Assembly: GCA_947476195.1 (NCBI GenBank)
Contig: CANJPT010000007.1
Coordinates: 1-64,000, forward strand
Direction: 5' to 3'
Length of the DNA stretch: 64,000 nt
From: Lewinellaceae bacterium
Lineage (GTDB): Bacteria; Bacteroidota; Bacteroidia; Chitinophagales; Saprospiraceae
Positions 21,804 to 61,833 of the stretch are shown here, piece after piece; position 1 is the stretch's first letter; each line of letters opens with the position of its first letter. The notes under the pieces are model-generated. The model searched no databases. It was not told where the DNA came from and saw only the letters and a program-made list of their open reading frames with translations. The position numbers and the translations under genes are program-made.

Positions 21804-23341
21804 TTAGTGCTGTATAATGACTTTTTGAGTCGTGCGTGTGCCTGTATCGGCGCAGAAAGAAATGAAGTAAACACCGGAAGGCACTTCTGCCGTTTTTAGC
21901 AATACTTGCTCCAGCCCAGCGGTTTTAACCTGTTCTGCCCATGTTTTACCTGCGACATCCATCAGGGTGATCCGACCCGACGCCTCCGGTTCGAGGTAGA
22001 CCGTAAGCAGATCGAAGGCTGGATTGGGAAACAGTACCATTTTCGGCGCTCTAACAGATTTAGGCTCTTTTACCGCAACCATTGGGCCATCTATCCCCAA
22101 CGAATCACACACACTGCCCGGCACGTCGTAGAGCCGATAATGTGGTACATTGGGCATTGTAAAGGCATGATAGACGGGTAATTTCAGCCCGTGCTGTTCC
22201 ACCTCACAGGCCAGGCCCGGTTGGTCAGGTTGATGGATAATATGCAATACATCTGTGCCAAAGTGTGAAGACCCATAAATTTTACCATTCGGTGCAAGGT
22301 CAAGTTGGAAAAAAGTAGTGGGTAGCTGTGATTCAAAGCCATCGTACTGCGCCACATTTACCTTGCTGGCCGCCACATCCGCAGCCTCCATATCATACTG
22401 TAAGATCCAAAGCCCCGTGGTGACGTACAGGTAGCGCGAGTTGGGTGAAAAGGCAATGCCCATAGCTACCACCGAGTCCGCCATCAGATCGAGGTGCCCA
22501 GGGTTGGAAAGCATACCTGTACAGCGGTCGAAGTCAAAAAAATTGACCCCGTTGTGGATGTTTCCACTGGCATAGCGTGTACCATCTGGGGAAAAGCAAG
22601 CCTGTCCAACCCAACTTTGATAGGACGAAAGGCGACCTATTTGTTGCTCGCCCTCATAATGCACTCCATAGGGATCAAACAGGTAAACATGATATTTTGC
22701 CTTACCGTCGGGGGGAGTGTTACAAAGCGGTGGTTTTCTTCTAACAAAATCCACCAGTCACGGCCATTGGCGTGGCGGCAGGCGGTAACCATGGGTGTAA
22801 AAGTATCAGTCTGCAAGGGCTGGTTTTTGGTTGTAACTTTGCCAAGACCCTCATTAGCAGATGCGTCTATAATGGAGTAGAGCAAGTCCTTGACAATAGA
22901 TCCTCCTGGCCACCAACGTATGTGGAAAAGGGCATAGAGTGAATCGCTACTAGGAATAGGCAAAAATAAAGCACCTTGGTCATTCAGATAAGCACTCACT
23001 ACACTCTCACAGTATTGTTCATGCAAAGGGCCTTCATTGATATTGTCTCCGTTATCCATTTGTTCATACAACTTGTTCTGAATCTCACAACCATTGGAAA
23101 GGGCAATTTTATTGCCCTTTCCATCACTTATACTGGCATTATCCCAATCCAAGCCAAGTGAAATATCGAAAAAAGAGAGAATAGGAGTATTTGTATTAAA
23201 ATCTATCAACGTCCCACCATAGTGTAATATTGAGTCACTTGGGCCATAGCCTAACACCCAGTTATAGTCATGTTTATCTTGAGCTGAACCCTTGAAAAAA
23301 AGTAACACACCCAAAATCAAAAGAAATGCTCTCATAGCCAA
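21804..23341 (-). pseudogene. T9SS type A sorting-domain protein, paralog of 23402..24934, frameshifted
   Basis: N-part in ORF 22637..23341 and C-part in ORF 21804..22754; frame changes at G6 tract 22710-22715 relative to the intact neighbour (VTLPPDGKAKYH). Confidence 0.85.
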
Positions 23342-23401: not shown

Positions 23402-24934
23402 TTAGTGTTGTACTATGACCTTTTGGGTCGTGCGTGTGCCTGTATCGGCGCAGAAAGAAATGACGTAAACGCCAGAGGGCATTTCTGTCGTTTTTAGCGT
23501 CACCTGCTCCAGCCCAACGGTTTTAACCTGTTCTGCCCATGTTTTGCCTGTGACATCCATCAGGGTGATTCGACCTGACACCTCCGGTTCGAGGTAGACC
23601 GTAAGCAGATCGAAGGCCGGATTGGGAAACAGTACCATTTTCGGCTCTCTCAAAGCTTTAGGCTCTTTTACTGCAACCATAGGCGCATTGATCCCCAGCG
23701 AGTCGCAAACGCTGCCCGGCACATCATAAAGGCGGTAGTGCGGCACGTTAGGCATGGTGAAGGCGTGGTATGCGGGCATTTTCAGCCCGTGCTGTTCCAC
23801 CTCGCAAGCCAACCCTGGTTGGTCGGGTTGATGAATGATGTGCAGCACGTCTGTGCCAAAGTGTGAAGACCCATAAATTTTACCATTCGGTGCAAGATCA
23901 AGTTGGAAAAAAGTAGTGGGTAGCTGTGATTCAAAGCCATCGTACTGCGCCACATTTACCTTACTGGCCACCACATCCGCAGCCTCCATATCATACTGTA
24001 GGATCCAGAGCCCCGTAGTGACGTACAGGTAGCGCGAGTTGGGCGAAAAAGCCAGACCCATGGCTACCACAGAATCTGCCATAAGGTCGAGGTGCCCGGG
24101 ATTGGAAAGCTGGCCCGTACATCGGTCGAAGTCAAAAAAATTGACCCCATTGTGGATGTTTCCGCTCGCATACCGTGTGCCATCGGGCGAAAAACAAGTC
24201 TGGCCTACAAAACTCTGATACGATGACAGCCGGCCTATCTTCTGCTCCCCATGGTAGTGGACGCCATCTGGGTCGAGCAGGTAAAAATGGTATTTTGCCT
24301 TTCCATCGGGCGGAAGGGTGACAAAACGATGGTTTTCTTCCACTACAATCCACCAATCTCGCCCATTGGCGTGACGACAGGCTGTGACATTAGCCGTAAA
24401 TGTGTCTGTCCGCAGTGGTAGGTTTTTGGAAACGACTCTTCCCAACCCGTCATTAGCAGAAGCATCAACAATAGAATAAAGAAAATCTTTCACAATGGAA
24501 GAGGGGGACCACCAACGCAAATGAAAAAGGGCATAAAGCGAATCACTGCCTGGCATGGGCAGAAAAAGGACCCCTTGATCGTTTAAATAACCACCTAAAC
24601 TATCAGCACAATATTGTTCATGAGCCGGTCCTTCATTAATATTATCACCATTTTCTATCAACTTATGTTCCCGGTTTCTAATCTCGCATCCATTTGTGTA
24701 ACAAATAAGCTGGCCACTTCGATCACTTATACTTGCTTTATCCCACAAAAAGCCTATCTCTGTCTCAAAATAAGTAAGTATGGGCTCTTCTGTTTCAAAA
24801 TTGACAAGTGTTCCTCCATAATGCAAGTCTGGATTACTGGGGCCATAGCCGAATATCCAGTTGTAGTCGTATTTGTCTTGGGCTGAAACTCTTATCATCA
24901 ACAGAACACCCAAAATAGTAAGGTATCTTCTCAT
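23402..24934 (-). CDS. T9SS type A sorting-domain secreted protein (beta-propeller-like)
   Basis: start MRRYLTILGVLLMIRVSAQ; C-terminal MVLFPNPAFDLLTVYLEPE...SGVYVISFCADTGTRTTQKVIVQH. Confidence 0.85.
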   Translation of the reverse strand: MRRYLTILGVLLMIRVSAQDKYDYNWIFGYGPSNPDLHYGGTLVNFETEEPILTYFETEIGFLWDKASISDRSGQLICYTNGCEIRNREHKLIENGDNINEGPAHEQYCADSLGGYLNDQGVLFLPMPGSDSLYALFHLRWWSPSSIVKDFLYSIVDASANDGLGRVVSKNLPLRTDTFTANVTACRHANGRDWWIVVEENHRFVTLPPDGKAKYHFYLLDPDGVHYHGEQKIGRLSSYQSFVGQTCFSPDGTRYASGNIHNGVNFFDFDRCTGQLSNPGHLDLMADSVVAMGLAFSPNSRYLYVTTGLWILQYDMEAADVVASKVNVAQYDGFESQLPTTFFQLDLAPNGKIYGSSHFGTDVLHIIHQPDQPGLACEVEQHGLKMPAYHAFTMPNVPHYRLYDVPGSVCDSLGINAPMVAVKEPKALREPKMVLFPNPAFDLLTVYLEPEVSGRITLMDVTGKTWAEQVKTVGLEQVTLKTTEMPSGVYVISFCADTGTRTTQKVIVQH

Positions 24935-24947
24935 TTCAAAACAAAAG

Positions 24948-24983
24948 GCCTCCTGCACTTAACCGAGGTTAAGTGCAGGAGGT
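24948..24983 (-). terminator. Rho-independent terminator downstream of the beta-helix gene
   Basis: minus: cctcctgcacttaacctcggttaagtgcaggaggccttttgtttt. Confidence 0.75.
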
Positions 24984-57454: not shown

Positions 57455-57529
57455 ATTTGGTGCAAAGGTAGGAAAAGAAAAAAGTAAGTAGGCAAGTTGA
57501 AAGTTTCAAGTTGAACGTGGGCGAAAGGG

Positions 57530-57620
57530 CACACGACTGGACATTTTCTAAAATCGAGACCTGTAAGGTTTTTGGAAACATTATAGGTCTTTGAGCAAAA
57601 CAAAAATGTCCAGTAGTGTG
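57530..57620 (+). mobile_element. MITE-like 91-bp element, copy 4, flanked by 9-bp TSD gcgaaaggg (57521-57529 / 57621-57629)
   Basis: cacacgactggacattttctaaaatcgagacctgtaaggtttttggaaacattataggtctttgagcaaaacaaaaatgtccagtagtgtg. Confidence 0.92.
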
Positions 57621-57695
57621 GCGAAAGGGACATGCCTTAATCTACTCGCTGTAATTTGCTTCTTACCTACGAACCTACTTTTCTACCTTCGCCCT

Positions 57696-60471
57696 ATGAC
57701 AAATCTTCAATGGGACACCTGCCGCCACAGAGCCGAAGCCTTCATCATGGATTATCTCCATGTTCGGGATGAAAAAGGGGAGGCACACTCTTTCCGGGAT
57801 CGCTTTTTTGGTATTTTTTGGACTTCAGCGCATCCGCTACGCCAACCATGGAGCACGCGTAAAACGCGACGGCAACCGACAGGGATTCATCGACCTGCTT
57901 TGGAAAGGCAAACTGCTCGTGGAACACAAATCCGCCAGCAAAGACCGCCCCGAAGACTTCGATGATGCCCTACGACAAGCGGAAGAATACATCGCCGGGC
58001 TTTCAAAGGAAGACCGGCCGCGGACGCTGGTGGTCTGTAATTTCAAACGGTTTCGGGTTTATGATCTGGGGAACCCAAATGTATTCACGGAGGTATTGCT
58101 CTCCGAACTCCCCCGGCATCTCGAGGTTTTCGCCTTCATGCCCGAATACGCTGACCTGGCGCGTGAACAGGAGGAAAAAGCCAATCTTGAAGCCGTATTG
58201 CGCATCAGCAATGTGTACAAAACCCTGCATAGCGCTGGCTATCGCGGCCACGACCTTGAACTGCTGCTCGTCCGTATCCTGTTCTGCGTTTTTGCGAAAG
58301 ACACCGGAATCTTTGAACCGAAGCAATTTTCAAACTTTATTGAAAAACATACCCTCGACAATGGCTCAGACATTGGAGAAAGCCTGGAACAGATTTTCGA
58401 GGTGCTTAATACGCCTTTCCGCTTACAACAACACGATCCTGCCGATCCGATTCGTCAATTCCCCTATGTCAATGGTGGCCTGTTTGCAGAAAAATTAACC
58501 CGAACGCCCCCTTCACTATCTGGTATCCGCAACGCCGTACTTGGCTGTGGTGATCTGTTCGATTGGGCACAAATTAGTCCTGAAATCTTTGGTTCACTGT
58601 TCCAGGCCGCGCTTGAAGAAACCGAGCGGCGCAGCTTGGGAGCACACTACACTTCGGAACGGAACATCTTGCGTCTGTTGGAACCATTGTTTCTCGATGA
58701 TTTGCGCGAAGAATTCCGCCTGGCTCGCCGGGACCGCAAAAAACTGGAAGCCTTTCGACAAAAAATCAGCCGACTCCAATTTCTCGACCCCGCATGTGGC
58801 TGCGGCAACTTCCTGGTGGTTACCTACCGGGAACTCCGCTTGCTCGACCTCGAAACCGCACGCCTCCTGCAAGGCGACCAGCAGGTGCTCGACATCTCAA
58901 TGCTTGAAAATGTGCGGCTCGAAAATTTCAGCGGCATAGAAATAAAACCGGTTTCTGCCCTCATTGCACAAGTAGCGCTCTGGCTCACCAAACACCAATG
59001 CAACCGGCTGCTGAATACGGCTTTTCACACGCATCTAAAATCTGTTCCAATAAATGAGGCGGCTAAAGTGGTGACGGGGAATGCGCTGACAACGGACTGG
59101 CTGGACTTGTGTAAGTCAGGCGGTGATTTCGAATCACCGCCTGACTCAGCCCGGCCCTTTGATTTCATCATCGGAAATCCACCCTTTTCCGGCTCAAAAA
59201 TTATGAGCGACGAACAGCGGGAAGAGATTAAAACGCTATTTGGCAACGAAGCAGGCTCTGGCACACTGGATTACGTGACGGGCTGGTATTTAAAGGCCGC
59301 TCAATATTTAAATACCCATCCTAATACGCGCGCAGCTTTCGTAAGTACCAATTCCATCGCACAGGGCGAGCAAGTCGGGATGTTGTGGGGTACACTGCTG
59401 GAAAAATACGGAGTAAAAATCCACTTCGCGCACCAGACTTTTAAATGGTTGAACGAAGCCCCCGGCGTGGCTGCGGTAAACTGCATCATTGTTGGGTTTG
59501 GAAAACAAAAAATCACGAGAAAACTGCTTTTCGAATATGTGGATATTAAAGCAGAACCAACGGTAACGGCAGTCAAAAACATTAACCCTTATCTTGTGGA
59601 AGCAGGAGATGTGGTGGTTCGTTCGCGCCAAAAACCGTTGTGTGATGTGCCCGAGATCAGTATTGGATGTCAGCAAATTGATGGAGGCAATTTTCTTTTT
59701 ACCATTGAAGCCAGAGATGTGTTTGTTAAAAAAGAGCCTCGCGCAGAAAAATATTTCCGTCGATGGCTTGGCTCTGATGAGTTTATTAATGGATGGGAAC
59801 GTTGGTGTTTATTTCTAAGAGACGAAAAAATTGAAATTTTGAAAGAAATTCCAACAGTCTGGGAACGGGTTGAGGCGGTCAAGAATTTTCGGTTATCCAG
59901 TAAAAGAATCCAAACATTAAAAGCCGCTGAGTACCCTCACAGATTGGGATTAGAGAGTATTTCTGAATCAGATTACCTTATTATCCCAAAAGTCTCTTCT
60001 GAACGCCGCGATTACATCCCCATTGGTTTTGAAACTCCTACAACAATTTGTAGTGACCTCGTTTTTATCATTCCCAATGCCACTCTTTTCCACTTCGGCA
60101 TATTGCATTCAAAAATGCACATGGCCTGGGTCCGTTCAGTCTGTGGGCGCTTAAAAAGTGACTATCGCTATTCTAAAGACATTGTCTACAACAACTTCCC
60201 CTTCCCGACCGCAGTCACGTCCGAGCAACAATCAGGAGTAGAATCTGCCGCACAAGCCGTACTTGACATCCGCAAGACCTATCAAGACAAAGGGGCTTCC
60301 TTAGCTAAACTATACGACCCCAATCTCATGCCCACAGATTTACTGGCTGCCCACGAGGCCTTGGACCAGGCTGTGGATGCTTGCTATGGGGTGACCAAGC
60401 CTTTCGAGACCGAGGCTAAGCGGGTGGCCTGGTTGTTTGGGTTGTATGAAGGGCTGGTGGGGAAGGGGTGA
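57696..60471 (+). pseudogene. MmeI-like restriction-modification protein (PD-(D/E)XK + N6-adenine methyltransferase), frameshifted at T6 tract 57814-57819
   Basis: N-term MTNLQWDTCRHRAEAFIMDYLHVRDEKGEAHSFRDRFFGIF in ORF 57591..57965; the rest (GLQRIRYANHGARVKRDGNRQGFIDLLWKGKLLVEHKSASKD... FLDPACGCGNFLVVTYREL ... DFIIGNPPFSGSKI) in ORF 57760..60471. Confidence 0.88.
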
Positions 60472-60528: not shown

Positions 60529-61203
60529 ATGATCACTTTTTCAAACAAACCCAAACTTGGATATGGGATTTACACAGTGGCTGATGTAGCCAAAGTGTTA
60601 GCCATGCCTATTGAGAAAGTCAGATATTGGCTAAAGGAATACTGGGATTTGCGGCTTTCACCAGATTCAGGCGAGCGAAGCTCTTGGGGAGAACGGCTTG
60701 ATAAAACTGTAAATTTTTATACGCTGGTTGAGTTTTATGTTTTTTACCAACTCCGCCAACATAAGGTTTCTGTCAACCAGATTTTAAAAAGCCATCGTTT
60801 ATTACGCGAAAAATTCAGTACCCCGTACCCCTTTGCATCCCATCGAATCATGACGGATGGCAAGGCGATTTTCTTTTCGCCAGACGGCGAAAGCATCGTA
60901 AACGCAACCCCAGCACTCCAATACAACCTGAAGGAAGTAATCGAAGATTTTCTGGAGAAAATGGAATTTGGAGATGAGGACCAAATTGCACTCCGCCTAT
61001 ATCCTAGTGGGAAAAATCGAACTATTGTTGTTGACCCCCACCATCAATTTGGCCAACCTGTCATTAAGGGTACCAATATTCAAGCAGGCACCCTGTTTGC
61101 CCTGTATATGGGTGGCGAAAAACCTGATTTTATTGCGTCCATCTACGATTTGAAAAAGGAGGAGGTAGAAGATGCCATCCGATTTTACCAAAAAGCAGCC
61201 TGA
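60529..61203 (+). CDS. DUF433-domain protein with N-terminal MerR-like HTH (putative antitoxin)
   Basis: YTVADVAKVLAMPIEKVRYWLKEYW; C-term HHQFGQPVIKGTNIQAGTLFALYMGGEKPDFIASIYDLKKEEVEDAIRFY. Confidence 0.82.
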   Translation: MITFSNKPKLGYGIYTVADVAKVLAMPIEKVRYWLKEYWDLRLSPDSGERSSWGERLDKTVNFYTLVEFYVFYQLRQHKVSVNQILKSHRLLREKFSTPYPFASHRIMTDGKAIFFSPDGESIVNATPALQYNLKEVIEDFLEKMEFGDEDQIALRLYPSGKNRTIVVDPHHQFGQPVIKGTNIQAGTLFALYMGGEKPDFIASIYDLKKEEVEDAIRFYQKAA

Positions 61204-61622
61204 TGAAAATTTATTTTGATGAAAACACAAACCTCCATTTAGTCCGAGGCCTCCAGCATTTACAGGAAGGAATGAGCAAAAAGGAGGATGAGCTTTTTGA
61301 GGTAGTTTTTCTCCCGGATATTTTTGGGAAAGGAGCGCAAGATGAAGATTGGATTCCCGTGTTGGGAGCAGAAGGCTCTGTTATTATCACACATGATCTA
61401 AACACCCACCGAACTCGTAGTCAACGAGAATTATATAAAGAGAATGGCTTGGGCGCATTCTTCTTTACGCCACCTTCCTTAAAAAACGGGTTTGGATATT
61501 GGGATCTTGTCCAACTAGTCATAAAACGTTGGGATGAGATTAAAAAACTCTCCTCCAAAAGAGCAAAACGCCCGTTTGCTTTTCGATACACCACCCGTGG
61601 TGCCAAGGCAGAGTCGATGTAA
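61203..61622 (+). CDS. DUF5615/PIN-like protein (putative toxin)
   Basis: MKIYFDENTNLHLVRGLQ...SVIITHDLNTHRTRSQ; start overlaps the DUF433 stop (TGATG). Confidence 0.78.
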   Translation: MKIYFDENTNLHLVRGLQHLQEGMSKKEDELFEVVFLPDIFGKGAQDEDWIPVLGAEGSVIITHDLNTHRTRSQRELYKENGLGAFFFTPPSLKNGFGYWDLVQLVIKRWDEIKKLSSKRAKRPFAFRYTTRGAKAESM

Positions 61623-61833
61623 TAACTGAGATCAGGTCTTTCGCCGAGATATCAGGTTAATGACTGACTGACTGGAAGAGCAGGATGCCCGGACTTTTGG
61701 AAAAAAGAAATTTTTACTTACCTTTACTGTAACATGCTTACCCCGCTTCCCATCAGAACAGCGCGCTTAGGGTGAGCTTTCTTTTTTAACCCTTGAGCAT
61801 CCATGCCACAAAAATAGTAATTTTTTGGCCCCG

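Follow-up and report, generated by a model that had tools for sequence, protein, structure and literature searches.

The MmeI-family gene and its surroundings

The window, that is the whole 64,000-nucleotide stretch of DNA analysed here, contains a phage-defence gene, a restriction–modification (RM) gene of the MmeI family (Type IIL, also Type IIG), which spans 57696-60471 of the plus strand across two reading frames. Its main open reading frame (ORF) starts at ATG 57760 and extends to 60471 on the same strand (903 aa). The features of the locus are as follows.

57530-57620, no strand assigned: MITE-like repeat of 91 bp in the interval separating ruvX from the RM gene; it has nested inverted repeats, and the 9-bp direct repeat GCGAAAGGG stands on each side of it
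57696-57965, plus strand: frame-1 ORF opening at the conserved start; its codons 1-41 encode the genuine N-terminus with two nuclease-domain helices, and the remainder is out of frame
57804-57819, plus strand: pair of T6 tracts at which the frame changes; the second tract (57814-57819) is favoured by the FFxIFG of homologs
57820-60471, plus strand: rest of the gene in the other frame (Pfam PF20464/20465/20473/20466/20467; PADLOC REase_MTase_IIG, 1025 bits)
57850-57852, plus strand: codon GGA, giving Gly at the E52 position of the family alignment, in the first strand of the nuclease core
59114-59146, plus strand: palindrome in frame with the gene (arms of 15, loop of 3), placed in a variable protein loop immediately 5' of NPPF
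Sister species G327, contig C216, 2825-3015 (L132): what is left of the RM gene, a degenerate 3' part adjoining ruvX

The large segment at 57820-60471 encodes the rest of MmeI_N, a helical spacer, a gamma-type N6-adenine methyltransferase, a target recognition domain (TRD) and a C-terminal domain. A search with MmeI domain profiles, as proposed in the initial annotation, places MmeI_N, MmeI_hel, MmeI_Mtase, MmeI_TRD and MmeI_C in the correct order within one gene, each above its curated Pfam cut-off, and the PADLOC assignment was obtained on the main ORF. The EHK, PACGCGNF and NPPF motifs described there were also recovered, at E76-H-K78, at residue 364 (DPACGCGNF, motif I) and at residue 494, the latter two being motifs of gamma-class N6-adenine methyltransferases. 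The PD-(D/E)XK nuclease residues D66, E76 and K78 are present, and are invariant in the family alignment. Enzymes of this family methylate one strand of an asymmetric site and cut ~20 nt from it.

The five-domain order and the length class are common to the window gene and MmeI (Type IIL, PDB 5HR4), whose D70, E80 and K82 (D-x9-E-x-K) correspond to D66, E76 and K78. The closest homolog, L039, aligns with MmeI across residues 4-910, and 5HR4 is its only PDB sequence match. The nuclease domain of L039 was modelled with a pLDDT of 91.6; the best structural match of this model is DrdV (PDB 7LO5 and 7LVV, E 1.3e-4), with 15% identity and thus a likeness by fold only. The proteins of L039, L040 and L041 (Saprospiraceae, same genus) are 61-73% identical to that of the window, all intact and devoid of the T6 pair. 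In contrast to MmeI, the window frame is broken after codon 41, at 57804-57819, where the family has a single uninterrupted ORF, and Gly replaces the near-invariant Glu 52. By its descent and its domains, the window gene belongs to the MmeI family; it does not qualify as a functional Type IIL system, for want of an open frame and of E52.

Several observations concern the neighbourhood and the coding sequence itself. The MITE-like repeat, present in ~40 copies in the genome, immediately precedes the RM gene, and the perfect 9-bp repeat that flanks it (57521-57529 and 57621-57629) is read as a target duplication. Directly downstream of the gene, at 60529-61622, DUF433 and PIN_10 proteins with overlapping stop and start codons form a toxin–antitoxin-like pair. 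L040 and L041 carry perfect in-frame palindromes of other sequences in the same methyltransferase-domain loop as the palindrome at 59114-59146, while L039 has none; among the four closest members of the genus, three carry a palindrome at the variable loop preceding NPPF. Similar palindromes, for example of the GTCAGGCGGTGA family, recur within other ORFs of the genus. With arms of at least 12, there are 13 in-ORF palindromes in 0.86 Mb of the window's genome and 12 in 1.59 Mb of G312, a genome of the same genus, compared with 0 and 2, respectively, in the shuffled whole sequence. They may represent small palindromic elements that are mobile and can be tolerated within coding regions. Elsewhere, at L157 (G000, contig C18, near 6558, minus strand), the ATG that precedes a long A run is in a frame different from that of the 400-codon ORF downstream, possibly an A-tract frameshift at the start of a gene.

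The frame break and the downstream start

The initial annotation described an MmeI-like gene out of frame at a T6 tract. Both T6 runs, at 57804-57809 and 57814-57819, are confirmed, and the intact protein of L041 (from G312) matches the window by tblastn in two pieces, in frames 3 and 1, with a junction at 57802-57818. Frame 1 from ATG 57696 reads MTNLQWDTCRHRAEAFIMDYLHVRDEKGEAHSFRDRFFGIF and then departs from the family sequence; its translation stops at 57965, which gives a ~90-residue peptide. The other frame carries ~880 codons and all five MmeI domains, on to 60471. In L039, a single 912-aa ORF without interruption, 73% identical, spans both window frames. The shift lies inside 57804-57819, and the FFxIFG of the homologs favours the second T6.

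Over the 37 codons 5' of the break, 27 of the 37 residues are identical between the window and L039, with a dN of 0.23 and a dS of 1.25 (dN/dS ~0.19), which argues that frame 1 has been under purifying selection. The same ratio is unusable across most of the gene, where dS is saturated. None of the 87 other homologs spanning the site is broken there. None of these 87 starts downstream of the break either, their conserved N-termini lying upstream, and the homolog alignments to the 903-aa ORF begin at about residue 15, which is the position of the frame change. A conserved downstream start, which would have spoken against a broken gene, was therefore rejected. On these alignments, the assembled sequence is truly broken, and the downstream ORF lacks a conserved start of its own. 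The broken frame is beyond chance; the T6 tract by itself is not.

The downstream ORF could be translated alone from ATG 57760, as a 903-aa protein lacking the first two nuclease helices and acting as a methyltransferase without restriction. The L039 model makes such a product conceivable, as helices 3-20 and 26-40 precede the break and strands 50-56 (E52), 62-69 (D66) and 73-78 (E76, K78) of the beta core follow it. The start is also in the correct frame, the methyltransferase, TRD and C-terminal domains are intact, and the E52G substitution would be consistent with the loss of the nuclease alone. However, this start is used by no homolog, the first ~20 residues would be an out-of-frame peptide, and no promoter-like site was detected in a scan which does not model Bacteroidota promoters, so that this origin of a methylation-only enzyme looks improbable. 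Programmed frameshifting or transcriptional slippage at TTTTTT, restoring some full-length protein, would be another way to use the broken gene. Slippage at such T/U runs has general precedent and a run stands at the site, but it is short, no relative needs recoding and the frame break is not conserved; of all the readings considered, this appears to be the least probable. A combined scheme, in which the break and E52G would reflect conversion to a methylation-only protein made from ATG 57760, with rare T-run slippage giving the full-length form, is extremely unlikely.

The T6 tracts and the quality of the assembly

The plus strand of the window contains 71 T runs of at least six, and the two at the break, which stand 4 nt apart, form the only pair within 15 nt of each other. 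A T6 or longer run is found at the break site in 31 of the 87 homologs, in frame in every case, because two Phe codons stand there. L039, L040 and L041 have no T6 or comparable tract at the site. The PhasomeIt cut-off for A/T tracts is at least 10 (PMC6321876), and in H. pylori reactivation was considered likely for tracts longer than 8 bp (PMC3936762). The T6 falls short of the A/T length of at least 10 used for phase-variable genes, and a tract kept in orthologs with both on and off states is not observed. From the tract counts, the Phe codons and the published cut-offs, the T6 therefore appears to be an ordinary slip site and not a contingency locus.

Phase variation, in which slippage at T6 would reversibly toggle the RM system, was one of the two readings initially put forward. 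It draws on the fact that RM genes, including H. pylori Type IIG genes with MmeI-like target recognition, phase-vary through homopolymers (PMC3936762), and on the singular spacing of the T6 pair in the window. The H. pylori system JHP1272 / HP1353-HP1354 indeed resembles the window gene in its homopolymer-associated frameshift. It has longer C tracts, both states have been observed and its specificity changes (PMC3936762), whereas the window gene has a T6, a single state and a break near the N-terminus. A T6 shorter than the accepted lengths, its absence from L039-L041, the Phe codons behind the 31 in-frame homolog runs and the 71 similar runs in the window all weigh against a switch, and E52G would leave its ON state nuclease-impaired. 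Reversible switching is thus very unlikely, and these comparisons do not support it.

The initial annotation also offered a sequencing error as the alternative, and this is still a live reading: the organism would have an intact frame and an enzyme either working or nuclease-weakened. The downstream ORF is long and intact, the change is a single base within a run and every relative is intact. Singleton frameshifts with homology support were mostly attributed to sequencing errors by Antonov et al. (PMC3711429). The same contig also holds a second frame-broken gene, at 21804-23341 (minus strand), where one base is missing near 22712 relative to an intact tandem paralog at 23402-24958 (77% identical), a possible hint that the contig contains errors.

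Against this, 0.86 Mb of the window's genome was compared at the protein level with 1.59 Mb of G312; across the ~128 kb of coding sequence that could be aligned, no frameshift other than the break studied here came to light. In a stricter 108-kb subset, 216 A/T runs of at least six show no further event. The assembly is thus not generally indel-prone, and a generally poor assembly was rejected on this comparison; the low indel rate makes an error at the break less likely without eliminating it. The G312 comparison was relied on here, the sensitivity of a coding-potential scan for other frameshifts being only ~64% and its matches being mostly ordinary adjacent genes. Moreover, E52G and the other losses at conserved sites are substitutions, which an indel error does not explain. 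A bare assembly error is hence possible, though not favoured.

E52G, related genomes and the fate of the gene

Of the 83 aligned sequences, 80 have Glu at position 52, as does MmeI; two have Gln, and the window has Gly. Given the two sequences with Gln, E52G is not necessarily fatal. The window alone departs from seven columns that are at least 90% conserved, versus two for L039 alone, and Tajima relative-rate tests against L039 are mostly not significant. The ~880 codons 3' of the break are stop-free with their motifs intact, so that any decay would be recent at most. A lineage-specific break accompanied by relaxed constraint or by loss in relatives, the pattern of a pseudogene made by an indel, is found here, with a modest constraint signal.

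In the sister species G327, all that is left of the RM gene at this locus is its final ~195 nt, which stand immediately after ruvX and contain frame-breaking gaps. This remnant is 75% identical to the window, versus 74% for the flanking genes, which indicates that the RM gene was resident in the common ancestor and later lost in G327. Downstream of the remnant, homology resumes with sequence corresponding to window 61684-61787, so that G327 has lost the DUF433/PIN pair as well as the RM gene. No RM match was found in the fetched parts of the locus in G321 and G303, and L039 occupies a different genomic site. Compensation by a second MmeI-type gene was also considered and rejected, the search of the window's genome having returned just two weak methyltransferase-domain matches.

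The best explanation, to which we give a probability of a little under 60%, is a real and recent loss-of-function frameshift in a gene that was already losing restriction. A T6 run that follows codon 41 would have gained one base, so that ribosomes beginning at the conserved start would make nothing but a useless peptide of ~90 residues. As nuclease, methyltransferase and target recognition lie on one polypeptide, the frameshift would silence all of them simultaneously, and this sharing of one chain would avoid the hazard of restriction without methylation. The nuclease core carries a separate lesion, E52G, and the sister species has already deleted nearly the whole gene at the same site. Under this loss-of-function reading, the break would be present in the cells and no functional protein would be made. 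The nuclease-domain substitution and the remnant in the sister species argue for decay rather than a switch, and the gene looks to be on its way to loss.

Frameshifted RM genes are common and easily mistaken for switches. Decay and switching can be told apart, as in this case, by comparison with relatives, by tract statistics, by counting frameshifts genome-wide and by the presence of a second lesion. Should reads reveal a mixture of tract lengths, the gene would instead encode a Bacteroidota Type IIL enzyme that phase-varies through an unusually short tract. The in-frame palindromes found at one loop of several relatives may outweigh the frame break itself in worth.
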